Below are positions 4,943 to 56,447 of a stretch of DNA of 64,000 nucleotides, in pieces; positions within the stretch are counted from its first letter, which is position 1; the number at the start of each line of letters is the position of its first letter. The translations under genes were made by a program, and so were the position numbers. Below the pieces are notes generated by a model. That model saw only the letters and a list, made by a program, of their open reading frames with translations. It was not told the origin of the DNA and searched no databases. The stretch spans positions 1-64,000 of the forward strand of contig NZ_JQGK01000003.1 of NCBI RefSeq assembly GCF_000743525.1, written 5' to 3'. This DNA comes from Sulfurospirillum sp. SCADC (lineage in GTDB: Bacteria > Campylobacterota > Campylobacteria > Campylobacterales > Sulfurospirillaceae).

Positions 4943-5926
4943 ATGGAGTTTACATGTAAAGAGTCAAAAAGACTCGATGCCGCCATGAGCGAAGCGCTGG
5001 AATTATCGCGCAATCAGGTCGAAAAACTGATTAAAAACGTCGGTGTCACGGTTGATGGAAAGCTGTGTACGAAATGCAGTTTAAAGCTAGTAGAAGGCAA
5101 TATCGTTCGTTATGAATTTATTGAGGCGACGCAAAGTCTAAGCAGTTATGACATTGATTTTGATGTGCCAATTTTGTATGAAGATGATGATCTTTTGGTG
5201 GTCAATAAACCGCCGTTTTTAACCGTGCATGGCGCACCAAGCGTAAAAGAAGCAACTCTGGTCGATTGGCTTCAGTTTAAAGGCATCAATCTCTCAACGA
5301 TCAGTGGTGAAGAGCGCCATGGTATCGTCCACCGCATCGATAAAGAGACGAGTGGCGCGCTGGTCATCGCTAAAAACAATGAAGCTCATGTAAGCCTCTC
5401 GTCGCAATTGGAAGATAAAAGCATGGGCAGATACTATCTTGCGCTCATCGATCTGCCCCTTAAAGATGATATTGTCGTGGAACTTCCCATTGGTCGTAGT
5501 GTGAACAATCGCCTTAAAATGGATGTTGCAAAACGAGATGGACGCATGGCAAAAAGTGCCTTTGCAAAACTTTTGACTTCGCGTGATGGTAAAAAAGAGC
5601 TCATTGCTGCTAAACTCTTTACGGGGCGAACCCATCAGATCCGCGTGCACCTCCAAGCGCTTAGCCGTCACATTTTAGGGGATAGTTTATACGGCTTTAA
5701 GAGCCAAAATGGTACAATACCCAGAGTTATGCTACATGCGTATATTGTGTATCTTAAACATCCAAAAACAGGGCAACTGTTGCAAATACATGCTCCATTA
5801 TGGGATGATTTTGATGCCTATTTAACACACCATTTCAGTAAGGAAGAGGTCAATGAAAAAATTACTTTGGATAGCATCGTTAATGGCTTTAAGCTTAATA
5901 ATCACTGGTTGCGAAAAGACACTTGA
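4943..5926 (+). CDS. rluD: RNA pseudouridine synthase, RluA/RluD family
   Basis: Converts specific uridines in 23S rRNA to pseudouridine. An N-terminal S4-like RNA-binding segment (about residues 1-70) is followed by the catalytic domain with HRIDKETSG at about 130 (catalytic Asp) and the RTHQIRVHL motif at about 230. The length of 327 is typical for RluD-type enzymes. One copy of the TTACATGTAA palindrome lies at codons 3-6 (Phe-Thr-Cys-Lys). Its 3' end overlaps the following lipoprotein gene by 74 bases in another frame, so translation is probably coupled. The exact target uridine is not determinable. Confidence 0.9.
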   Translation: MEFTCKESKRLDAAMSEALELSRNQVEKLIKNVGVTVDGKLCTKCSLKLVEGNIVRYEFIEATQSLSSYDIDFDVPILYEDDDLLVVNKPPFLTVHGAPSVKEATLVDWLQFKGINLSTISGEERHGIVHRIDKETSGALVIAKNNEAHVSLSSQLEDKSMGRYYLALIDLPLKDDIVVELPIGRSVNNRLKMDVAKRDGRMAKSAFAKLLTSRDGKKELIAAKLFTGRTHQIRVHLQALSRHILGDSLYGFKSQNGTIPRVMLHAYIVYLKHPKTGQLLQIHAPLWDDFDAYLTHHFSKEEVNEKITLDSIVNGFKLNNHWLRKDT

Positions 5927-7118: not shown

Positions 7119-8297
7119 ATGCCAAATTTTCATACCAAGACACTTAAACCTTTAGGCTACCCTTGCACGTATAACGAGACCACCTTTACGTATGAAGCGC
7201 ACTCTAAAAGAGGCAATACGCTGGTGATGGCGTCAACGCAAGGGGAGCAGGTACTCATTCGGATTCAGCAAAAAGAAGACGGAGTTTTGTTGGTCAAGGG
7301 CGATAAAGTCACCCGTCCAACCCAAGCCTCTTTTTTGCAAAAAGTGTTGATTGATTTTCGTGATGCGAGCGAAGCTGAGGAGATTTTCACCAACATTGAG
7401 CCTAAAAAGTTCTTACATGTAAAGCATTCGCCCTACCTCAAAGAGATCGAATTTTTTGCAAACCATTTTGATGTAGCGCGCGAAATTTGGGTCGAAATTG
7501 GCTTTGGAAGCGGACGCCATCTGTTGCATCAAGCCAAGAAAAATCCGCATATCCAATTTATTGGACTGGAGATTCATAAGCCTTCCATCGAGCAGGTTTT
7601 AAAACAGTGTGAGCTTCAAACTATCGAGAATATTCTCGTGATTGACTATGACGCGAGACTGTTTATGGAGTTTTTACCTTCCAATGTGGTGGGGCGCATT
7701 TTTGTGCATTTTCCTGTCCCTTGGGATAAAAAACCACACCGTCGTGTCTTCTCCGCCGCCTTCATTGAAGAGGCACTGCGTGTCTTACATGTAAAAGGGA
7801 CATTGGAGCTTCGAACCGATAGTCCGCTCTATTTTGAATTTACCTTTTCGCAGATGATGCAACTGAGCAAAGCGGATGTACATGTAAAGAAAAATGCTGA
7901 TTTAGAGATTACGAGTAAGTACGAAGATCGTTGGCGTAAAATGGAAAAAGACATCTACGATGTGATCTTAACCAATGAAATTGAGGCTGCACCGATTCCA
8001 AAACTGGGTCGGTTGCACTTTGATGCAACGGTTAATTTTGCCAAGATTCGAGATGCGTTTAAAGACGAACTTTTGCGAGGTCAAGGCTTTTTTGTCCATT
8101 TTGAAGAGCTGTTTGAAATCAATGAAAAAAGTGGCTTAATTCGCCTCTCTTTTGGTGCGAATGAACGCAATGAGCGCTGTTTTATACAGATACAAGAAGG
8201 AAAAGTAACATATCTTCCTGAGACAATTTTAGCAACCAAAAGCAATGTGGCAGCCCATACCTTAATTAAAGAGTGGTTTCATGGAATATGTGATTAA
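7119..8297 (+). CDS. trmB: tRNA (guanine-46-N7)-methyltransferase TrmB, extended form
   Basis: SAM-dependent enzyme that makes m7G46 in tRNA. The Rossmann motif EIGFGSGRHL is at about residue 126 and the substrate motif FPVPWDKKPHRRV at about 200. At 392 residues it is much longer than the roughly 240-residue E. coli enzyme, with extra sequence at both ends, as I recall for Campylobacter. Three TTACATGTAA sites (7413, 7785, variant 7878) fall inside it. It overlaps ftsE by 17 bases, consistent with one operon. Confidence 0.9.
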   Translation: MPNFHTKTLKPLGYPCTYNETTFTYEAHSKRGNTLVMASTQGEQVLIRIQQKEDGVLLVKGDKVTRPTQASFLQKVLIDFRDASEAEEIFTNIEPKKFLHVKHSPYLKEIEFFANHFDVAREIWVEIGFGSGRHLLHQAKKNPHIQFIGLEIHKPSIEQVLKQCELQTIENILVIDYDARLFMEFLPSNVVGRIFVHFPVPWDKKPHRRVFSAAFIEEALRVLHVKGTLELRTDSPLYFEFTFSQMMQLSKADVHVKKNADLEITSKYEDRWRKMEKDIYDVILTNEIEAAPIPKLGRLHFDATVNFAKIRDAFKDELLRGQGFFVHFEELFEINEKSGLIRLSFGANERNERCFIQIQEGKVTYLPETILATKSNVAAHTLIKEWFHGICD

Positions 8298-29186: not shown

Positions 29187-30428
29187 ATGTATAAGGTTAT
29201 TTTAACCCTTTTTTTTCTATTTCAGAGTCTCCATGCTTTTTTAAATACCGATAATAACTATGAAAAACAACTTACCGCTCTCAAAAATTTTGATCTTCCT
29301 TACACCTTCTTGAAAGATTCTATCTTTATCTCGATGCAAGAAGACGTAGAGGTGTATAAGACCAAACATTTCTTGCGCACATTAGAGAGTGGCGACCGAT
29401 TTGTGCCTATTTTGCAAAAAATGATGCAAGAAGCGGGCGTTCCAGCGGAGTTTTTATACCTTGCGATGACCGAATCGAGTTTTGACCCTTACTCCTCTTC
29501 TTCCGCACGAGCTTCAGGCATTTGGCAATTTATCCCCGATACTGCGCGTCGTTACGGTTTGGTGAACAATGCCTTTGTCGATGAGAGGCGTGATCCGATC
29601 AAATCCACTGAAGCAGCGATTGCTTATCTGAAACGTTTACACGATATGTTTGGCAAATGGTATTTGGCAGCCTTGGCGTATAACTGTGGGGAAGGGTATG
29701 TTACCAAAGCGATTGCAAAAGCAGGAACGGATGACATTAGCGTTTTGTTAGATGAAAATCAAAAATACCTTCCCAAAGAGAGTAGGCTCTATATTCGTAA
29801 AATTTTGATGATGAGTTTTATCTCAGGCAGTACCGATTTTATGCTGGATAATGGCTCAGAGTATCTGCTTAATCGTGCCAATAATGCAACGTTTGTCAAA
29901 GTTTCTGTTCAAAGTGGCACACCATTGCGCGATGTTGCTGAGAGTATTGGTATCTCAGTTAAGGAGCTTAAATCCTATAATCCTCATCTCAAACATGCTT
30001 TTGTCTCTCCTCTGGGCGCTAAAGGGTATCTTTACATTCCCCAAGATCGTCAAGTCTCTTTTTCTCAAAATTTTGATCAAACGAAAGAGCCTCAAAAATA
30101 CGCTGTCTATAACACCAAAAAAGGGGACTCACTGCAAAGTATTGCGAAAAGATACGGCGTGAGTTATCAATCGTTGATGGAGCTTAATAACCTTAAAACA
30201 GCAGCTATAAAACCAAAAACAGAATTGATAGTGCCTTCTGGTGTTCCAATGCCTGTCACAACGCCTTCTTCTTCTAATGCTGAAAAAATCTACGTGATTA
30301 AAGCCGGTGACACCATTGAAACCGTAGCGAAAAAGTATGATATTCCCGTCGCACAATTGATCAAAGTCAATAAGAAAAAAAATGCACTTGTCAAAGTGGG
30401 AGAGAGTATTGTCATTCCAAAAAATTAG
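29187..30428 (+). CDS. mltD: Membrane-bound lytic murein transglycosylase D with LysM repeats
   Basis: Cleaves glycan strands to 1,6-anhydroMurNAc. A signal peptide (about 1-18) is followed by an SLT domain with catalytic Glu in MTESSFDP (about 97) and GIWQFIP, and C-terminal LysM modules (about 305-350 and 368-412, with a weaker one before). It is not a lipoprotein, unlike E. coli MltD. Its 3' end overlaps rlpA, as in C. jejuni Cj0645-Cj0646. Confidence 0.92.
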   Translation: MYKVILTLFFLFQSLHAFLNTDNNYEKQLTALKNFDLPYTFLKDSIFISMQEDVEVYKTKHFLRTLESGDRFVPILQKMMQEAGVPAEFLYLAMTESSFDPYSSSSARASGIWQFIPDTARRYGLVNNAFVDERRDPIKSTEAAIAYLKRLHDMFGKWYLAALAYNCGEGYVTKAIAKAGTDDISVLLDENQKYLPKESRLYIRKILMMSFISGSTDFMLDNGSEYLLNRANNATFVKVSVQSGTPLRDVAESIGISVKELKSYNPHLKHAFVSPLGAKGYLYIPQDRQVSFSQNFDQTKEPQKYAVYNTKKGDSLQSIAKRYGVSYQSLMELNNLKTAAIKPKTELIVPSGVPMPVTTPSSSNAEKIYVIKAGDTIETVAKKYDIPVAQLIKVNKKKNALVKVGESIVIPKN

Positions 30429-48248: not shown

Positions 48249-48887
48249 ATGGATCGTATTCGCACCATTTCAATTTTTTCAAAACTCAATGACGCACAGC
48301 TTGAAAAGCTTAAAAAAATTTCGGTCATCAAAAAGTTTAGTGCCAAAGAGATTTTGTTCTACGAAGGCGATGCTCCCATCTATCTTTATGTACTGCTTCA
48401 AGGAACGCTCAAAGTCTACAAAACTAACCACAAAGGACAACAGATCTTCTTGCATCAGTTTTATCCCGGTGGTTTGGTGGCGGAGTTGGCAAATTTTGAG
48501 AACATTCTTTACCCTGCAACCGCGGAGTTTATGAGTGAGAGTGAAGTGCTTCGCATTGACTACAAGGCGTTGGAGCATGATTTTTTTAAAAATCCTGACA
48601 TTTCGTTTGAGATCATCAAATCCCTCATTGCTAAGCATAAAATTTTGATTGATGTGATTCAAAAAGAGGTGATTTTGACCGCCGATGCCAAAGTGGCAAA
48701 GTTTATCTTGGACAATGGGGAACTCTTTAAAACACTCAAAAATACCCAAGTCGCTTCCATTCTTAACCTGACTCCCGAAACACTCTCCCGCACGCTTTCT
48801 AAGTTTAAATCCTCAGGATTTATCGAGCTTGATGACAAGCATCATATTCACGTACTAGACGCGCAAAAATTAGAAGAAGTCTTATAG
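48249..48887 (+). CDS. Crp/Fnr family regulator (Nss-like)
   Basis: The 212 residues have a cyclic-nucleotide-type beta-roll (about 5-120), a dimer helix and a winged helix. It has no cysteine, so it cannot carry the FNR iron-sulfur cluster. The recognition helix reads TPETLSRTLSKF, with the Glu-x-x-Ser-Arg core that in FNR reads TTGA. Such proteins (Nss family in Wolinella, NssR in Campylobacter) respond to nitrate, nitrite or NO. It lies upstream of nrf on the same strand, with a perfect FNR-type palindrome 17 bases after its stop. Confidence 0.85.
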   Translation: MDRIRTISIFSKLNDAQLEKLKKISVIKKFSAKEILFYEGDAPIYLYVLLQGTLKVYKTNHKGQQIFLHQFYPGGLVAELANFENILYPATAEFMSESEVLRIDYKALEHDFFKNPDISFEIIKSLIAKHKILIDVIQKEVILTADAKVAKFILDNGELFKTLKNTQVASILNLTPETLSRTLSKFKSSGFIELDDKHHIHVLDAQKLEEVL

Positions 48888-48903: not shown

Positions 48904-48917
48904 TTGACATAGGTCAA
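48904..48917 (+). promoter_or_regulatory. FNR/Nss-type operator upstream of nrfH
   Basis: TTGACATAGGTCAA is a palindromic TTGA-N6-TCAA site, the FNR core. Its centre (48910.5) lies about 41.5 bases before the start point implied by the -10 box at 48940, the classical class II activator position. Both flanking Crp/Fnr genes encode Glu-x-x-Ser-Arg recognition helices that should read this site. Confidence 0.8.
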
Positions 48918-48937
48918 GGTTTTTTTTCGCCTTTCTT

Positions 48938-48945
48938 TATACAAT
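48938..48945 (+). promoter_or_regulatory. Predicted -10 element of the nrfHAIJ promoter
   Basis: TATACAAT follows the FNR-type site with normal class II spacing, implying a start near 48952 and a leader of about 120 bases that includes a TTACATGTAA copy at 49033 and ends in GGAGGAAAT before nrfH. Confidence 0.65.
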
Positions 48946-49032
48946 ACCCCATAGCTTTCACTAGATTATTAGATTCAATTCAAATTAATAATTAGGAGGT
49001 TTTGGTTTTGGTTCGGGTTAGGCGTTGTTGCT

Positions 49033-49074: not shown

Positions 49075-49608
49075 GTGAAAAAGAGTAATTTCCTAAAGTA
49101 CGCGGCACTCTTTGTTTTTGTCGTAGCCATCGGCTTTTTTGCTTACGTGGTTCACGCATCCAAAGCGCTGTCGTATCTCTCCAGTGATCCAAAAGCCTGT
49201 ATCAACTGTCACGTCATGAATACGCAATACGCAACATGGCAACACAGTTCACACGCTGAACGAGCTGGGTGTATCGATTGTCACTTACCACGCGATAATA
49301 TGGTCAACAAATACATTGCCAAAGCGCGCGATGGGTATAACCATAGTGTTGCATTTACGTTCAATACGTACAAAAATGCGATTAAGATCAGTGACGATGG
49401 TGCGAAGAGAGTTCAGGAGAATTGTATTTCGTGTCATGCAAGTTTAACCTCACAAATGGTTAAAAATGCCGATGCCAATCACAATTATGACGATCCAAGT
49501 GTCGCTACAGGTAGACGCTGTTGGGAGTGTCATAAAGGCGTGCCACACGGCAAAGTCAGAGGTCTTACCACGACACCGAATAATTTGGGTGTTAAAGAAG
49601 TCCAATAG
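49075..49608 (+). CDS. nrfH: Tetrahaem cytochrome c quinol dehydrogenase NrfH
   Basis: Membrane-anchored NapC/NirT-type cytochrome that takes electrons from menaquinol to NrfA. One N-terminal membrane helix (about 7-27) and four CxxCH haem sites (CINCH, CIDCH, CISCH, CWECH) are present. The start is GTG at 49075 with AAAGGAGGAAAT. The 177-residue length is as in Wolinella. Haem attachment needs the NrfI-type system encoded in the same operon. Confidence 0.97.
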   Translation: MKKSNFLKYAALFVFVVAIGFFAYVVHASKALSYLSSDPKACINCHVMNTQYATWQHSSHAERAGCIDCHLPRDNMVNKYIAKARDGYNHSVAFTFNTYKNAIKISDDGAKRVQENCISCHASLTSQMVKNADANHNYDDPSVATGRRCWECHKGVPHGKVRGLTTTPNNLGVKEVQ

Positions 49609-49731: not shown

Positions 49732-51264
49732 ATGAATAAGTTCAAAGTATTACTGGTTGGCTCATTGGTTGCTATCGGCGCAATGGCATTATTGGCTGGC
49801 AATATCACAGAAAAAGAGAAAGAAAGAGTCGAACTTGCTAAAGCGCCAAGCCAAGCAGGCATCGAGGGCAAAGCCAAAAGCGAAGAGTGGGCAAAGTACT
49901 ATCCACGTCAGTTTGATTCTTGGAAGAAAACCAAAGAGAGCGATAACATTGAAGATATGCTGGCTAAAAAACCGTACCTTGCGGTTGCGTGGGCAGGATA
50001 TGCGTTTTCAAAAGATTACAATGCGCCACGAGGGCATTACTACGCGGTTCAAGACAATGTAAACTCTCTTCGAACGGGCGCTCCTGTGGATGCTAAAACA
50101 GGTCCGTTGCCAACGGCGTGTTGGACATGTAAATCCCCCGACGTTCCTCGTTTGATCGAAGAAGATGGTGAGCTAGAGTATTACACGGGTAAATGGGCAA
50201 AGTATGGTTCACAAGTAGTCAACTCCATCGGTTGCGCAACGTGCCACGATGACAAAACAGCGCAGTTAAGCGTTCGTGTTCCTCATCTCAATCGTGGTCT
50301 TGTCGCAGCTGGACTTAAAAGCTTTGAAGAGTCTACGCACCAAGAGAAACGCTCTTTGGTCTGTGCGCAATGTCACGTAGAGTACTACTTCAAAAAGACA
50401 GAGTGGAAAGATGCGAAAGATGTGAACAAAACCGCGATGGTGGTGACCCTTCCGTATGCTAAAGGTCTCAGCGTTGAATCGATGGAAAAATACTACGATG
50501 AGATCAACTTCTCTGACTGGGTTCATGGCATCTCTAAAACACCGATGATCAAAGCGCAACACCCAGACTGGGAGCTTTGGAGAACGGGAATTCATGGACA
50601 AAAAGGCGTTTCATGTGCGGATTGTCACATGCCGTACACGCAAGAGGGTTCGGTGAAGTATTCCGATCACCAAATTGGAAATCCACTGAAAAATATGGAT
50701 AAAAGTTGTATGAACTGCCACAGAGAGAGCGAAGATAAATTAAGAGGCATCGTTCAACAAAAAGTCGAGCGCAAAGACTTCATGATGGACATCGCGTTTG
50801 ACAACATCGCTAAAGCTCACATCGAGACGGGAAAAGCGATGGAAGTGGGTGCAAGTGATGATGAACTTAAAGAGATCAGAACACTCATTCGTCATGCTCA
50901 ATGGAGAGGCGATATGGCGATTGCGGGTCATGGTGCATTTTTCCATGCTCCTGAAGAGGTTCTAAGACTTTTAGGATCCGCCAACGAGCAAGCACAACAA
51001 GCACGTCTAAAACTGGTCAGCGTTCTTGCCAAACATGGTGTTATGGACTACGTCGCACCTGATTTTGACACGAAAGAGAAAGCACAAAAAATCGCTAAAG
51101 TCGATATGCCAGCATTGATCGCTGAAAAGCTTAAATTTAAAGAGACTCTAGAGAAAGAGTGGAAAAAAGAGGCATCTGCTAAAGGCAGACTCGCTCCAAA
51201 TTCCGTCGCTCTTGATCCTGCAGTCGATAGCAAATCTTCTTACTTCGATAAAAACAAGAAGTAA
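49732..51264 (+). CDS. nrfA: Ammonia-forming cytochrome c nitrite reductase NrfA
   Basis: Periplasmic pentahaem enzyme reducing nitrite to ammonium with six electrons. Signal peptide (about 1-22); the active-site haem is the hallmark CWTCK, followed by four CxxCH sites (CATCH, CAQCH, CADCH, CMNCH). The 510-residue length is typical. Calcium and Lys/Arg/Tyr/His active-site residues appear around the SADCHMPY segment. It works in a membrane complex with NrfH. Confidence 0.98.
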   Translation: MNKFKVLLVGSLVAIGAMALLAGNITEKEKERVELAKAPSQAGIEGKAKSEEWAKYYPRQFDSWKKTKESDNIEDMLAKKPYLAVAWAGYAFSKDYNAPRGHYYAVQDNVNSLRTGAPVDAKTGPLPTACWTCKSPDVPRLIEEDGELEYYTGKWAKYGSQVVNSIGCATCHDDKTAQLSVRVPHLNRGLVAAGLKSFEESTHQEKRSLVCAQCHVEYYFKKTEWKDAKDVNKTAMVVTLPYAKGLSVESMEKYYDEINFSDWVHGISKTPMIKAQHPDWELWRTGIHGQKGVSCADCHMPYTQEGSVKYSDHQIGNPLKNMDKSCMNCHRESEDKLRGIVQQKVERKDFMMDIAFDNIAKAHIETGKAMEVGASDDELKEIRTLIRHAQWRGDMAIAGHGAFFHAPEEVLRLLGSANEQAQQARLKLVSVLAKHGVMDYVAPDFDTKEKAQKIAKVDMPALIAEKLKFKETLEKEWKKEASAKGRLAPNSVALDPAVDSKSSYFDKNKK

Positions 51265-51273
51265 ACTTCATTC

Positions 51274-51297
51274 CGAAGAGAGGGAAACCTCTCTTCG
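51274..51297 (+). other. GNRA-type hairpin between nrfA and nrfI
   Basis: CGAAGAGAGG (51274-51283) pairs perfectly with CCTCTCTTCG (51288-51297) across a GAAA tetraloop. Starting nine bases after the nrfA stop and lacking a U-tract, it looks like an mRNA-stabilising or attenuating element that could keep nrfI expression below nrfA. Confidence 0.65.
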
Positions 51298-51359
51298 TGT
51301 ATGCTATACTTAAACTGCCAATACCGTGGCATCTTAAGTGTGTTATACAAAGGACAAAC

Positions 51360-53735
51360 GTGTTGCTCAAAGTTTTTGGCTCCTACAAAACAACGCTGAT
51401 ACTGCTTTTCTTTTTAGCCGTGGGTGCTGCGATTGCAACGTTTGTGGAAAATGACTTTGGCACAGCGGTAGCTCGTTATTATATTTACAATGCACTCTGG
51501 TATGAAATGCTTTTGGTTCTTGCTGCGATCAATCTTGCCATCACGCTTTACCGCTCCAAAATGATGTTACATGTAAGCCGTTTTACCTTTCATGCGGCGT
51601 TTATTCTCATTCTCATAGGATCAGGTCTCACACGTTATTTTGGCGTGGACGGTGTGATGAAGATACGCGAAGGCTCAAGTTCCAATATCATTTTTTCCAG
51701 TGAAAAAAATGCGGAGATCACGTTACCGTTTGCGCTACACCTCAATGACTTTGAGTTGGAGCGCTACTATGGCAGTCGCTCGCCTTCAGCTTACACCAGC
51801 GATGTTGAGGTGCGAGATGGCAATACAACGCTCGATGCGCAGATTTACATGAACCACACACTAAGCTACAAAGGGTACAAATTTTTTCAAACCTTTTACG
51901 ATCCCGATGAAAAAGGAACGATCCTCTCCGTCACCAAAGACCCAGGTGTTGAAGTGACCTATGTGGGTTATGCACTGCTTTTTTTAGGGCTGATTCTCAA
52001 TCTGTTTGACCCAAAATCGCGCTTTCGTAAGCTCATCTCCGAGGTCAAAAGCAGTTCACTTCTCGTTGTTTTCATGCTTTTGGTTCAAACACCGTTATGG
52101 TGTGAGAGCGAATATGTGCAAACGTATTTGAGTGAGCATCAGGCGAACAGCAAAGAGGTCAGTGACGCGTTTGGAAAGCTGGTCGTGCAGTCGCGCATGG
52201 GGCGCATGAAGCCTTTTGACACCTTAAGCCAAGAGGTACTGTATAAACTGAGCGGTAAAAATAGCCTGTACGATATGGACGCGATGCAAATAGCCCTTGG
52301 CATGCTCTCACACCCCAGTGTCTGGAAAAATCTGCCGATGATTCAGACCAAAACGCCTAAACTTCGAGCACTCATCGGCATTGACAGCGCCCAAAAATTA
52401 GCTTCGTTTGAGGACTTTTTCGACGGGCATCGTTACAAACTAGATGCTGAGCTTCAAAAAGCGCTCGCGATGAAACCGAGCACACGTGGCACCTTTGAAA
52501 ACGATCTGATCAAAGTCGATGAACGTCTGAGCATCGCGTTTATGCTCTACCAAGGCGTGTTGTTTAAAATCTTCCCACTGCCCAACGATGCGAATCACAC
52601 GTGGCTGGCATATGAACAGATGTTTGCGCAAATGGAGGGTGCGGAAGCTGAAAAACTCAAAGAGAGCTCCACCGCATTTATCGAGGCACTCTTTGAGCGT
52701 AATTACGCCAAAGCACTTTTACATGTAAAGACGTTTTCGGATTTTCAAAGCAACTATGGCGCGCAGATTATGCCTTCACCCAAGCACATTCAGATTGAAA
52801 TTTTCTACAACAAACTGATGCTTTTTGAGCGATTGACCTTGGCGTATGTGCTGTTAGGGTTAACGCTTTTAGTCGTTGCTTTTGGGCGTGTTTTTGCTCC
52901 CAATACCTTTACATGTAAACTCACGCAACCGCTCTTTTTCATCGTGGCATTGCTGTTTGTCGTGCATACCTGTGGACTCGCACTGCGTTGGTACATCAGC
53001 GGACACGCACCTCTGAGCGATACCTACGAGTCCATCGTTTACATCGCGTGGTCGTGTCTGCTTTTTTGCATGCTTTTCTTGCGTCGTTCGTTGTTTGCCC
53101 TTTCAGGTTCGGTGATGATGGCGGGCATCTTTATGTTTGTTGCACATCTTGGGCACATCGACCCTGAGATCACCAATCTTGTACCCGTGCTCAAATCGTT
53201 TTGGCTTTCGGTGCATGTCTCCATCATTACGGCGAGTTACGGTTTTTTAGCGCTGGGGTGTGCGTTGGGATTGTTCACGCTCATCCTCTTTACATGTAAA
53301 CGCTCAATCAAGATCGTTGCCACCATTAAACACCTCACTGCCATCAATGAAATCACCCTGATTTTGGGCTTGAGCCTCTTGGTCATCGGTAACTTTTTAG
53401 GTGGCATTTGGGCGAATGAGTCGTGGGGGCGTTATTGGGGTTGGGACCCGAAGGAAACATGGGCGTATATCTCTATTTTGGTCTATGCGATCATTTTACA
53501 TGTAAGGCTTGTGCCACGGTTTTATTCGCACTATCTTTTTGCAGTGCTTTCCCTTTTAGGCTTTGCCTCCATACTGATGACCTACTTTGGTGTGAACTTT
53601 TACTTAGCTGGCATGCACTCCTACGCCACGGGCGATCCTGTGCCGATTCCACTTTGGGTCTACGTCTGCAGTGGCGTTGTTCTGAGCTTAATCGCTCTTT
53701 CGTATAAAAATAAAAATTTAAAGGAAGAAAAATGA
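51360..53735 (+). CDS. nrfI: Cytochrome c synthetase NrfI (CcsBA-type fusion)
   Basis: System II haem lyase that attaches haem to nrf cytochromes. ResB-like N-terminal half (several membrane segments plus a periplasmic domain) is fused to a CcsA half with the tryptophan-rich haem motif WGRYWGWDPKETW (about 715) and flanking His residues. NrfI in Wolinella is adapted to CxxCK, matching NrfA here. I favour GTG 51360 (AAAGGA upstream; 791 residues) over ATG 51297. It carries five TTACATGTAA copies (51567, 52719, 52909, 53290, 53496), the highest density in the window. Confidence 0.93.
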   Translation: MLLKVFGSYKTTLILLFFLAVGAAIATFVENDFGTAVARYYIYNALWYEMLLVLAAINLAITLYRSKMMLHVSRFTFHAAFILILIGSGLTRYFGVDGVMKIREGSSSNIIFSSEKNAEITLPFALHLNDFELERYYGSRSPSAYTSDVEVRDGNTTLDAQIYMNHTLSYKGYKFFQTFYDPDEKGTILSVTKDPGVEVTYVGYALLFLGLILNLFDPKSRFRKLISEVKSSSLLVVFMLLVQTPLWCESEYVQTYLSEHQANSKEVSDAFGKLVVQSRMGRMKPFDTLSQEVLYKLSGKNSLYDMDAMQIALGMLSHPSVWKNLPMIQTKTPKLRALIGIDSAQKLASFEDFFDGHRYKLDAELQKALAMKPSTRGTFENDLIKVDERLSIAFMLYQGVLFKIFPLPNDANHTWLAYEQMFAQMEGAEAEKLKESSTAFIEALFERNYAKALLHVKTFSDFQSNYGAQIMPSPKHIQIEIFYNKLMLFERLTLAYVLLGLTLLVVAFGRVFAPNTFTCKLTQPLFFIVALLFVVHTCGLALRWYISGHAPLSDTYESIVYIAWSCLLFCMLFLRRSLFALSGSVMMAGIFMFVAHLGHIDPEITNLVPVLKSFWLSVHVSIITASYGFLALGCALGLFTLILFTCKRSIKIVATIKHLTAINEITLILGLSLLVIGNFLGGIWANESWGRYWGWDPKETWAYISILVYAIILHVRLVPRFYSHYLFAVLSLLGFASILMTYFGVNFYLAGMHSYATGDPVPIPLWVYVCSGVVLSLIALSYKNKNLKEEK

Positions 53736-54382
53736 AAAAATTGTGTTTAACGTTGGCAACCTTCGCCTGTAGTTTAGCCCTGCACGCAGGCGATGTTTTT
53801 GAAGGTGTGGTCGTCGATACGCTCAATGGTGGTGGTTACACCTACCTACAGATTGACGATACCAAGAAAAAATACTGGGTTGCGGTAGAGGGAACCAAGG
53901 TTGAAAAAGGAACGGAAGTGCGTTTCACCGAAGAGTTACGTGCCAAGAATTTTGAGAGTAAATCGCTTAACCGCACGTTTGATGAGATCGTCTTTGCTTC
54001 CAACCTTCAGTACCGCACCAATGTTCCTGAAAAAGGCAATCTTGCTCTTGTGAGCGAGCAGGTCAAAGAGTCTCCGTATAAACAAAAGGATACCATGAGT
54101 GTTAAAGAAGCGTGGGAAAAACGTGCCAGTTTGAAAGATAAAACGATTGCGATTCGAGGTAAGGTTGTGAAAGCTTCTCCGAATATTTTGGGTCAAAATT
54201 GGATTCATATTCAAGATGGTACGGGTGAGGGAAGTGAAGTTGGGCGCATTGTTTTTACCTCCAAAGAGCTTCCTAAAGTTGGGGACATCGTGACCGCAAA
54301 AGGTGTCGTGAGCGTGGATAAAGACTTTGGTTCGGGCTATTTTTACAAGATCATTGTGCAAAATGCTACCTTTAGCAAATAA
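53732..54382 (+). CDS. nrfJ: Periplasmic protein NrfJ
   Basis: The fourth gene of an nrfHAIJ operon, overlapping nrfI by ATGA. The 216 residues have a signal peptide (about 1-20) and two OB-fold-like nucleic-acid/ligand-binding-type beta barrels (about 22-85 and 125-210; IAIRGKVVKASPN in the second). NrfJ in Wolinella has no established biochemical role. The name relies on operon position and size. Confidence 0.75.
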   Translation: MKKLCLTLATFACSLALHAGDVFEGVVVDTLNGGGYTYLQIDDTKKKYWVAVEGTKVEKGTEVRFTEELRAKNFESKSLNRTFDEIVFASNLQYRTNVPEKGNLALVSEQVKESPYKQKDTMSVKEAWEKRASLKDKTIAIRGKVVKASPNILGQNWIHIQDGTGEGSEVGRIVFTSKELPKVGDIVTAKGVVSVDKDFGSGYFYKIIVQNATFSK

Positions 54383-54398: not shown

Positions 54399-55061
54399 AT
54401 GACAAACGATCCTTTGGCACTTATTGCTTCCTTGCCACTGTTTGATTCCCTGCAAGGTGACGATCTTCAAAAAATCGCCTCCTTTTGCAGTGTGCGTCAC
54501 CATAAAGCCGGTGACGTGCTCTTTTATGAAAAAGACACCAAAGATGCGATCTATTACATCATCAAAGGCTCGGTCAAATTTTACAAAGTGGATCGTTTTG
54601 ACAATGAAATCTTCCTCTACAAACTCTACTCCAACTCCCTGATTTTCAATGTTTCCAAGCTCATCGACAGCTTTTTTATCAGCTGTTACGCGAATGCCGA
54701 GTTTTTGGAAGACAGCACGGTGCTCTCCATCCAAAGTGAGCCATTTCGTGCGATGATCTATGCCAATCACCGCTTGATGACGAAGATTTTGGAAGAGTCT
54801 TTTAAGATGATTCAGCAGATGCAGTGTATTATTAGCCGTGATGTTGTCTTTGATGGAACGGCGAAAGTCGCACACATGCTCGTCAATGAGTTGGAGACGT
54901 TTAACCATCTTAAAAAACATGAAATTGCCTATATGTTGCACATTCAGCCTGAGACACTTTCACGTATTTTAAACAAACTCACCCGTAATGGTACGATTGA
55001 GATCGAAAAAAACAGCGTTGTGGTCTTGAATATTCAAGAGCTCAAAGAGATTTATGAGTAG
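54399..55061 (+). CDS. Crp/Fnr family regulator, second copy
   Basis: A 220-residue Crp/Fnr protein: effector beta-roll (about 10-125), dimer helix and winged helix with QPETLSRILNKL (Glu-x-x-Ser-Arg, FNR-type specificity). It has three scattered cysteines and no N-terminal cluster, so it is not FNR. It is 17 bases downstream of nrfJ and could be co-expressed with nrf, forming a feedback loop; it is immediately followed by the PilJ-type sensor gene. Confidence 0.85.
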   Translation: MTNDPLALIASLPLFDSLQGDDLQKIASFCSVRHHKAGDVLFYEKDTKDAIYYIIKGSVKFYKVDRFDNEIFLYKLYSNSLIFNVSKLIDSFFISCYANAEFLEDSTVLSIQSEPFRAMIYANHRLMTKILEESFKMIQQMQCIISRDVVFDGTAKVAHMLVNELETFNHLKKHEIAYMLHIQPETLSRILNKLTRNGTIEIEKNSVVVLNIQELKEIYE

Positions 55062-55067
55062 GACAGC

Positions 55068-56447
55068 ATGATCAAACCAACCACCATTAGCACCAAAATG
55101 AAACTCGCAGGCGGACTGCTTTCGTTTGTGATTATTTTCATCATTTCACTCACCGTTATGATGAATCAGATGAGTAAAAAAGACTCCTACATCATCAACA
55201 TCGCAGGCAAACAGCGCATGCTCTCTCAAAAGATCAGCAAAGAGACCTTTTTCATCGTGCATCGCCATACCAACGACTTTCGCGAGCTCAACACGGCGGT
55301 CGGTCTGTTTGAAAGCAGTCTCAAAGACCTCCTGTATGGCAATGATGCCAAAGGCATTTACGCGCCTCAAAATGATCGCATCAAAGCCAAACTTGAAGAG
55401 GTCATGAGCCTATGGCTTCCCTTTCGCTCGGAAGTAGAAGCGCTTAAAAGTGGCATCGAAGAGGTGCGCCCCGATATGGAAGTGCTGACCCCTCGCATCG
55501 AAAAACTCCTCGTGCTCTCTGACACGGTGGTGCAACGCATGGTGGGAGCAGGTCTGAACAACATTCACATCGACCTCTCTGGTCGTCAACGCATGCTCTC
55601 TCAACGCATGGGGCTCTATGTCAACCGTTATTTGCGCTCAGCCAATGCGCAAGATCTGCTCGTTTATGCCGATGCCAAAGCACTGTATAACAAAACGATC
55701 AAGAGCTTTTTAGAGGACGCGGCGGTCAAAAATGCTCCCGAAGTCTACGCCATCGTCAAAGAGAACAACGCGTATTGGGAAGAGTACATGCTCTACTTAG
55801 ACCATGTCATCGTACTGGAGAGTGAGATCAACAAGCATTTGGCGTATGTGTATGAAAAAAACGTGCAACTGCTCAACGCGATGGATGAGGCGGTTTGGCT
55901 CTACACCGACCACAGCGAAGCCAAAAACGATATGTTCCTCAAATTTCAGTACATCGCTCTTTTGATTGGGCTTATCATCATCGTCTATGCATTTGTGATG
56001 ACCAAAGAGATTACGGAACATTTAGAAGGATTTGTGCAAAAAGCCAAAGAGCTCGCACACGGCGATATAAGTAGCTTTTCTTCTCAAAATGTAACGCTTT
56101 CTTCAAACGGGGAAGATGAGCTCAAAGAGGCGTCAACGCACATCTCGCTCTTTGTGCAAAAGGTCAATCTTGCGATGAAAGACTCCGAAGATGCGCTCAA
56201 AAAAGCGGAAAATGCCGTCTCACAACTGCAGCAACTCGCGGAAGAAGTCGAAGATGTCATCGAAGATATGGGCATTGACGAGAATGCAAAAAAGACGTTT
56301 GATAAAAACGTGAACGCCACAGAGGACATCGCCATTCAGTCGGCCGAAAATCTCATCCATGTGAACCGAATGCTTCAAAAGTTGAAAAAAAGCCTTAATG
56401 CGATGGTCGAGAGTAGCAACCAAATGGACGAAAAAAAAGAAGTGTAA
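55068..56447 (+). CDS. PilJ/NarX-type membrane sensor without output domain
   Basis: Two PilJ-like modules (about 35-145 and 165-280), each opening with a P-box-like segment (AGKQRMLSQKIS, SGRQRMLSQRMG) similar to the nitrate/nitrite sensor NarX. Membrane helices flank them (about 13-33 and 298-318), followed by a HAMP-like region and a heptad-rich coiled coil to the end. I find no histidine kinase, methyl-accepting signalling or cyclase domain. It lies six bases after the second Crp/Fnr gene, suggesting a nitrate/nitrite input to that regulator. Confidence 0.8.
   Translation: MIKPTTISTKMKLAGGLLSFVIIFIISLTVMMNQMSKKDSYIINIAGKQRMLSQKISKETFFIVHRHTNDFRELNTAVGLFESSLKDLLYGNDAKGIYAPQNDRIKAKLEEVMSLWLPFRSEVEALKSGIEEVRPDMEVLTPRIEKLLVLSDTVVQRMVGAGLNNIHIDLSGRQRMLSQRMGLYVNRYLRSANAQDLLVYADAKALYNKTIKSFLEDAAVKNAPEVYAIVKENNAYWEEYMLYLDHVIVLESEINKHLAYVYEKNVQLLNAMDEAVWLYTDHSEAKNDMFLKFQYIALLIGLIIIVYAFVMTKEITEHLEGFVQKAKELAHGDISSFSSQNVTLSSNGEDELKEASTHISLFVQKVNLAMKDSEDALKKAENAVSQLQQLAEEVEDVIEDMGIDENAKKTFDKNVNATEDIAIQSAENLIHVNRMLQKLKKSLNAMVESSNQMDEKKEV

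Follow-up and report, generated by a model that had tools for sequence, protein, structure and literature searches.

The window, which is the whole 64 kb stretch of Sulfurospirillum sp. SCADC DNA that was analysed, carries on its forward (+) strand a run of nrf genes flanked by two genes for Crp/Fnr proteins. The first of these, which we term reg1 (48249–48887), is linked to nrf and is followed by nrfH (49075–49608), which starts with GTG and encodes the quinol dehydrogenase subunit of NrfA (TIGR03153 above cut-off). The product of nrfA (49732–51264) matches ammonia-forming cytochrome c nitrite reductase (NF008339 above cut-off) as well as solved NrfA structures. It is followed by nrfI (51297–53735), which encodes a ResB/CcsA-type haem lyase (PF01578 and PF05140) and whose true start may be further in, and by a gene in the nrfJ position (53732–54382) for which neither Pfam nor NCBIfam gives a family at E ≤ 0.001. 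The second regulator gene, reg2, occupies positions 54399–55061, and a gene for a PilJ-type membrane protein (55068–56447) begins 6 bases after it.

Both regulators have an effector domain and a helix–turn–helix domain (PF00027 and PF13545, above cut-off in each). The first-pass annotation had described them as sharing a Glu-x-x-Ser-Arg recognition core and as having no FNR cysteine cluster, and both descriptions hold. The recognition helix reads P-E-T-L-S-R in each protein; the FNR-type [4Fe-4S] cysteine cluster is absent from both sequences, with reg1 having no cysteine and reg2 having cysteines at positions 30, 96 and 143 only. The genome has five cNMP-domain matches. One lies within a frame of 624 residues; among the other four, the Crp/Fnr-type proteins compared, P-E-T-L-S-R occurs only in reg1 and reg2. 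Positions 180 and 181 are proline and glutamate in both regulators, which fits recognition of TTGA by the specificity rule stated in the available text of PMC1274295. The reg2 protein is 99% identical to its nearest named record and 93% identical to that of S. diekertiae. Another Crp/Fnr-type gene of the same genome, at positions 7131–7745 of locus L067, adjoins genes labelled from their sequences as catalase-like and peroxiredoxin-like.

Between reg1 and nrfH lies the Crp/Fnr-type operator TTGACATAGGTCAA (48904–48917), and 22 bases 3′ of it is the −10 hexamer TACAAT (48940–48945, within TATACAAT at 48938–48945). If transcription starts 7 bases past the end of this hexamer, at 48952, the centre of the palindrome (48910.5) falls at −41.5, which is the arrangement of TTGA-N6-TCAA expected of a class II FNR-type operator and agrees with the perfect palindrome at about −41.5 that had been reported on first inspection. 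The exact palindrome is present four times in the window (3.2 expected) and 172 times in the genome (about 142 expected in first-order random sequence), and because such counts are at chance level we do not treat them as evidence. What matters is the position of the nrfH palindrome rather than its frequency. With the neighbour frequencies of the window, the exact palindrome is expected about 0.010 times in 187 bases by chance; the random expectation for the palindrome with its last base free, joined to TANNAT at the nrfH spacing, is 0.00015 per 187 bases. In the window, neither the 250 bases upstream of reg1 nor the gap between the nrfJ-position gene and reg2 yielded a palindrome with one mismatch or fewer.

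The site is conserved. We examined 29 nrfH upstream regions of the family, the window included, and found the palindrome together with a −10 box before 26 of them (19 exact, seven with one mismatch), with both half-sites conserved. As measured by a script that favoured the −10 box nearest to a 22-base gap, operator and −10 box are separated by 22 bases at 22 of the 26 loci, by 21 bases at two and by 23 bases at two. A thirtieth strong match outside this set (L034), in which nrfH is a fragment at the end of a contig, has an identical site and −10 box. The palindrome and −10 box were not found at L045, which comes from a metagenome bin and has unrelated upstream DNA, or at L064 and L065, which are divergent second copies of nrfHA. 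In these second pairs nrfH is 58–59% identical and nrfA 44% identical, and the operator is absent.

In an alignment of 19 sequences from the genus, identity to the window is 0.82–0.97 for the 10-base blocks from the operator to the −10 box, compared with 0.53–0.59 for the three blocks preceding the operator. Downstream of the −10 box, block identity varies between 0.57 and 0.96, peaking at two Shine–Dalgarno-like stretches. In four congeners (G013, G014, G027 and G031) reg1 is located 3 to 18 kb from nrfH, and the operator has remained at nrfH. With this genus-wide conservation and two cluster-less Crp/Fnr proteins as candidate regulators, the earlier proposal that nrfHAIJ has a class II arrangement of the FNR type is upheld.

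Two further features of this DNA were observed. In 19 of the 20 upstream regions of the genus that were viewed, L045 being the sole exception, a second Shine–Dalgarno-like GGAGG (48994–48999 in the window) precedes the nrfH start by approximately 77–130 bases; it may mark a leader peptide. Separately, TTTACATGTAAA is present 14 times in the 64 kb (compared with 0 in 100 shuffles), in both coding and intergenic DNA, starting at 4949, 18512, 23219, 37533, 41481, 43701, 46249, 49032, 52718, 52908, 53289, 57077, 61016 and 61646. It is also frequent in other Sulfurospirillum loci and looks like a highly iterated palindrome; our literature search found no description of it.

The same combination of operator, spacing and −10 box occurs at other genes of this genome. 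Upstream of napA (G000:C3:72253; NapA above cut-off), TTGACTTAAGTCAT is followed after 22 bases by TAGAAT. The prismane/hcp gene is preceded by TTGAGATCAATCAA, 22 bases and TAAGAT, and a Rieske-type gene, so labelled from motifs in its sequence, by TTGACACATGTCAT, 22 bases and TAAAAT. The exact composite pattern with a 22-base gap has six matches in the genome compared with 4.3 expected, which precede nrfH, napA, hcp, the Rieske-type gene, an aminotransferase-like gene and a 64-residue frame (labels other than those of hcp and napA were read from the sequence). Since this count is hardly above chance, the promoters besides that of nrfH rest on place and recurrence. When gaps of 21–23 bases are allowed there are 18 matches, compared with two for the control and about 10 expected, and 10 of the 18 were judged by eye to be outside open reading frames.

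Recurrence was assessed in six congener genomes, which together hold 51 matches to the composite pattern compared with nine for the reversed control. Judging the genes behind the 42-mers by likeness, the hcp site recurs in all six, the Rieske-type site in five, the nrfH site in four and the napA site in three; the nrfH sites of G018 and G021 differ from the exact pattern by one base of spacing and by one operator base respectively. The sites before the aminotransferase-like gene and the 64-residue frame recur in four and six of the six congeners, and these may also be real promoters. The perfect form TTGAY-N4-RTCAA occurs at 23 sites in the genome. Besides nrfH, 19 of the other 22 are inside a long open reading frame (18 of the 21 sites elsewhere in the genome, together with the window site at 30357, which is inside ORF 29187–30428). 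The remaining three are the hcp site and those at C5:17109 and C13:15577, and neither of the latter two has a suitably oriented gene close downstream.

The protein encoded behind reg2 has the features of a membrane sensor. It is 459 residues long, with hydrophobic helices at residues 13–31 and 293–311 that would act as transmembrane segments on either side of two PilJ modules, and it ends in a cytoplasmic coiled coil. Its sole Pfam match at E ≤ 0.001 is PilJ (PF13675, E 2e-26); at this threshold Pfam returns neither a kinase domain of the NarX/NarQ type nor a methyl-accepting (MCP) signalling domain. Sequence matches are to PilJ and to the nitrate receptor McpN (E approximately 2e-5). Each module has a P-box (I-N-I-A-G-K-Q-R-M and I-D-L-S-G-R-Q-R-M) that contains G-x-x-R, which is described in the available text of PMC8199190 as the nitrate-binding motif of NarQ, NarX and McpN. 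The protein combines the PilJ domain and the G-x-x-R P-box expected of PilJ/NarX-type nitrate receptors. G47, R50, G172 and R175 are invariant in 11 close sequences. Among 39 PilJ proteins the P-box of module 1 reads G-x-x-R-M in 36; the arginine or the motif is missing from the other three (L136, where arginine is replaced by serine, L166 and L168). The number of modules varies by lineage, with one in some and two in others. The coiled coil carries the motif E-D-I-A-I, and a C-terminal E-D-x-x-I is invariant in 19 diverse members, of which the 18 others are 19–52% identical to the window protein.

The fold of the sensor was predicted with AlphaFold. A first model, based on the 11 close sequences, gave a poor coiled coil, and a second, based on the 19 diverse sequences, was better (mean pLDDT 83, with the coiled coil at only about 70). 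The predicted fold matches the structures of PilJ (Z 18.7), McpN (Z 18.1 over 124 residues at 1.9 Å, model residues 37–284) and NarQ (Z 15). The sensor domains of McpS and TorS also match it (Z 14–17), and the fold is shared by PilJ of P. aeruginosa, so it is no proof of nitrate binding. The structural comparison assigned no fold to the coiled coil. Judged from its sequence and the model, the protein looks like a nitrate detector minus the usual kinase.

The pairing of reg2 with this protein extends across the Campylobacterales. From a search of 298 genomes of the order we took 40 reg2 loci among the stronger hits, and a PilJ gene is directly 3′ of reg2 in 39. Among the matches listed for the Campylobacterales, 103 of 105 PilJ-family proteins that have the C-terminal part are encoded immediately 3′ of a reg2 homologue; the exceptions are in G229 (at a contig start) and G304 (where the place of reg2 is outside the matches listed). 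Conversely, 87 of the 90 listed reg2 homologues with 39% identity or more have a PilJ partner; the other three are in G110 (at a contig end), at L149 (G076) and a second copy in G150, whose neighbour could not be resolved. In the window the pair sits at nrf, whereas in other genera it is mostly at nap. On the same strand, napA lies downstream in 25 of the 40 loci, 24 times behind the PilJ gene and once (L149) straight behind reg2. A palindrome is located within the 260 bases upstream of every one of these 25 napA genes (15 exact, 10 with one mismatch). Stretches drawn at random from these loci contain an exact palindrome in 3–4% of cases and one with at most one mismatch in 27–35%. Before the reg2 genes themselves, an exact palindrome is found at 8 of 38, which against the 3–4% background makes autoregulation of reg2 likely in some lineages; with up to one mismatch the count is 16 of 38, near the background of 27–35%.

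The regulators known from related bacteria are informative about the signal. For Wolinella succinogenes, a 2021 review reports that NssA, NssB and NssC mediate the induction of nap, nrf and cnos, with nitrate, NO or N2O as inducers but not nitrite; how Nss proteins sense nitrate is, according to that review, still unsettled (PMC8139620, available text; see also PMC6682613). An orthologue of NarP is reported to be missing in these bacteria (PMC6682613, available text). In the accessible portion of PMC11539149, TTGA-N6-TCAA is used as the binding consensus, and the Crp/Fnr gene that precedes nap in Nitrosophilus is described as 44.8% identical to NssA, from which reg2 is probably NssA-like. The kinship of reg1 and reg2 with the Nss proteins is plausible. 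A query with part of the Wolinella NrfA gave no match at E ≤ 1e-130 among 398 genomes. The Wolinella data speak against the part of the first-pass annotation that called the operon nitrite-activated. Of that reading, the class II site with its cluster-less candidate regulators stands and the nitrite signal is not supported; it had also overlooked the PilJ-type sensor and the napA and hcp promoters.

We consider it rather probable that the nrfH palindrome is where one or both of the flanking Crp/Fnr proteins bind to activate nrfHAIJ in the class II manner, and that reg2 and the PilJ-type protein form a nitrate-sensing pair that switches nap and nrf. Periplasmic nitrate would bind at the G-x-x-R P-boxes of the PilJ modules, and the resulting change would pass across the membrane to the cytoplasmic coiled coil, which would switch reg2. 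From TTGA-N6-TCAA at −41.5, the activated reg2 would then turn on nap and, in Sulfurospirillum, nrf, with hcp a probable further target, and reg1 would be a second activator tied to nrf, for which NO is the likeliest signal. The analysis shows the site with its spacing and conservation, the pairing of the genes and the sensor motif, and it predicts the sensor fold; from these we infer that nitrate is bound, that the PilJ-type protein and reg2 are in contact, in which direction regulation runs and to what reg1 responds. Most likely reg2 is an NssA-type nitrate activator with the PilJ-type protein as its receptor, and the predicted signal is nitrate, not nitrite. The adjacency of the two genes could reflect co-transcription without contact between their products.

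A possible but doubtful alternative is that reg1 alone drives nrfHAIJ, and that reg2 and its PilJ partner serve nap and merely neighbour nrf. The presence of reg1 and that of nrfH agree in 24 of 24 congeners, 21 of which have both (in one of them nrfH is a contig-end fragment) and three of which, G016, G029 (86% complete) and G030 (77% complete), have neither; the location of the reg2–PilJ pair in other genera points the same way. In the genome of G016 nrfH was not found, with distant cytochrome matches only, and reg1 is represented only by a 46% relative; its locus L133 carries at least part of nrfI, followed by nrfJ, reg2 and PilJ. Yet reg1 and nrfH adjoin in most congeners, so a single deletion can remove both, and against an exclusive role for reg1 are the operator and spacing shared by nrfH and napA and the recognition helix shared by reg1 and reg2.

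Alternatively, reg2 itself might sense the signal, for example NO through haem, and the PilJ-type protein would be a co-transcribed receptor that acts elsewhere. The regulator DNR senses NO through haem, and it is the best PDB sequence match of reg2 (E 2.7e-10). The reg2 homologue that stands at napA without a PilJ gene (L149) suggests that reg2-type proteins may work alone, and NO also induces nap and nrf in Wolinella (PMC8139620, available text). We nevertheless regard self-sensing as unlikely in view of the near-obligate adjacency of the two genes among the matches listed, a PilJ-type protein in which Pfam at E ≤ 0.001 identifies neither a kinase nor a methyl-accepting domain, and a C-terminal motif that stays invariant in otherwise divergent members. 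That TTGACA is simply a −35 box and the palindrome accidental is highly improbable: the hexamer is a perfect −35 sequence and the palindrome alone is at chance frequency, but 30 bases separate TTGACA from TACAAT, no sigma-70 promoter of normal spacing using TTGACA was found upstream of nrfH, and both half-sites are conserved.

The preferred reading, in which the PilJ-type protein and reg2 act as a pair, is likely to answer how these bacteria sense nitrate, and we put it forward as a putative mechanism. Whether it extends to a widespread, phosphorelay-free nitrate unit of the Campylobacterales, in which a PilJ receptor controls a Crp/Fnr activator through a coiled coil, we judge to be evenly balanced. 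If true, it would be a further means by which a receptor in the membrane can act on a Crp/Fnr activator, and would explain how nitrate governs its own respiration in many bacteria of this widespread order. As the gene pair singles out a receptor and two arginines, the question of nitrate sensing becomes directly testable in a laboratory strain.

Several known systems resemble the one proposed here in part. Class II promoters of E. coli FNR carry TTGA-N6-TCAA centred at −41.5, the same operator and centre as at nrfH, whereas reg1 and reg2 are without the FNR cysteine cluster. The C. jejuni regulator NssR is likewise a Crp/Fnr protein and is linked to nitrosative stress; it has A180/Q181 and the site TTAAC-N4-GTTAA (PMC1274295, available text), in contrast to the P-E pair and TTGA site of reg1 and reg2. 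The Nss regulators of W. succinogenes are similar in that they are Crp/Fnr proteins without the cluster and are linked to nap, to nrf and to TTGA-N6-TCAA. The available text of PMC11539149 does not mention a membrane sensor partner for them, nor did we find a PilJ partner for Nss regulators described in the accessible parts of the open-licence literature; reg2 has a PilJ gene behind it. Finally, McpN, NarX and NarQ share with the protein described here a PilJ/NarX-type periplasmic bundle and a G-x-x-R P-box. The present protein differs from them in having two tandem modules, in showing neither a kinase nor a methyl-accepting domain in Pfam at E ≤ 0.001, and in being encoded behind a Crp/Fnr gene.
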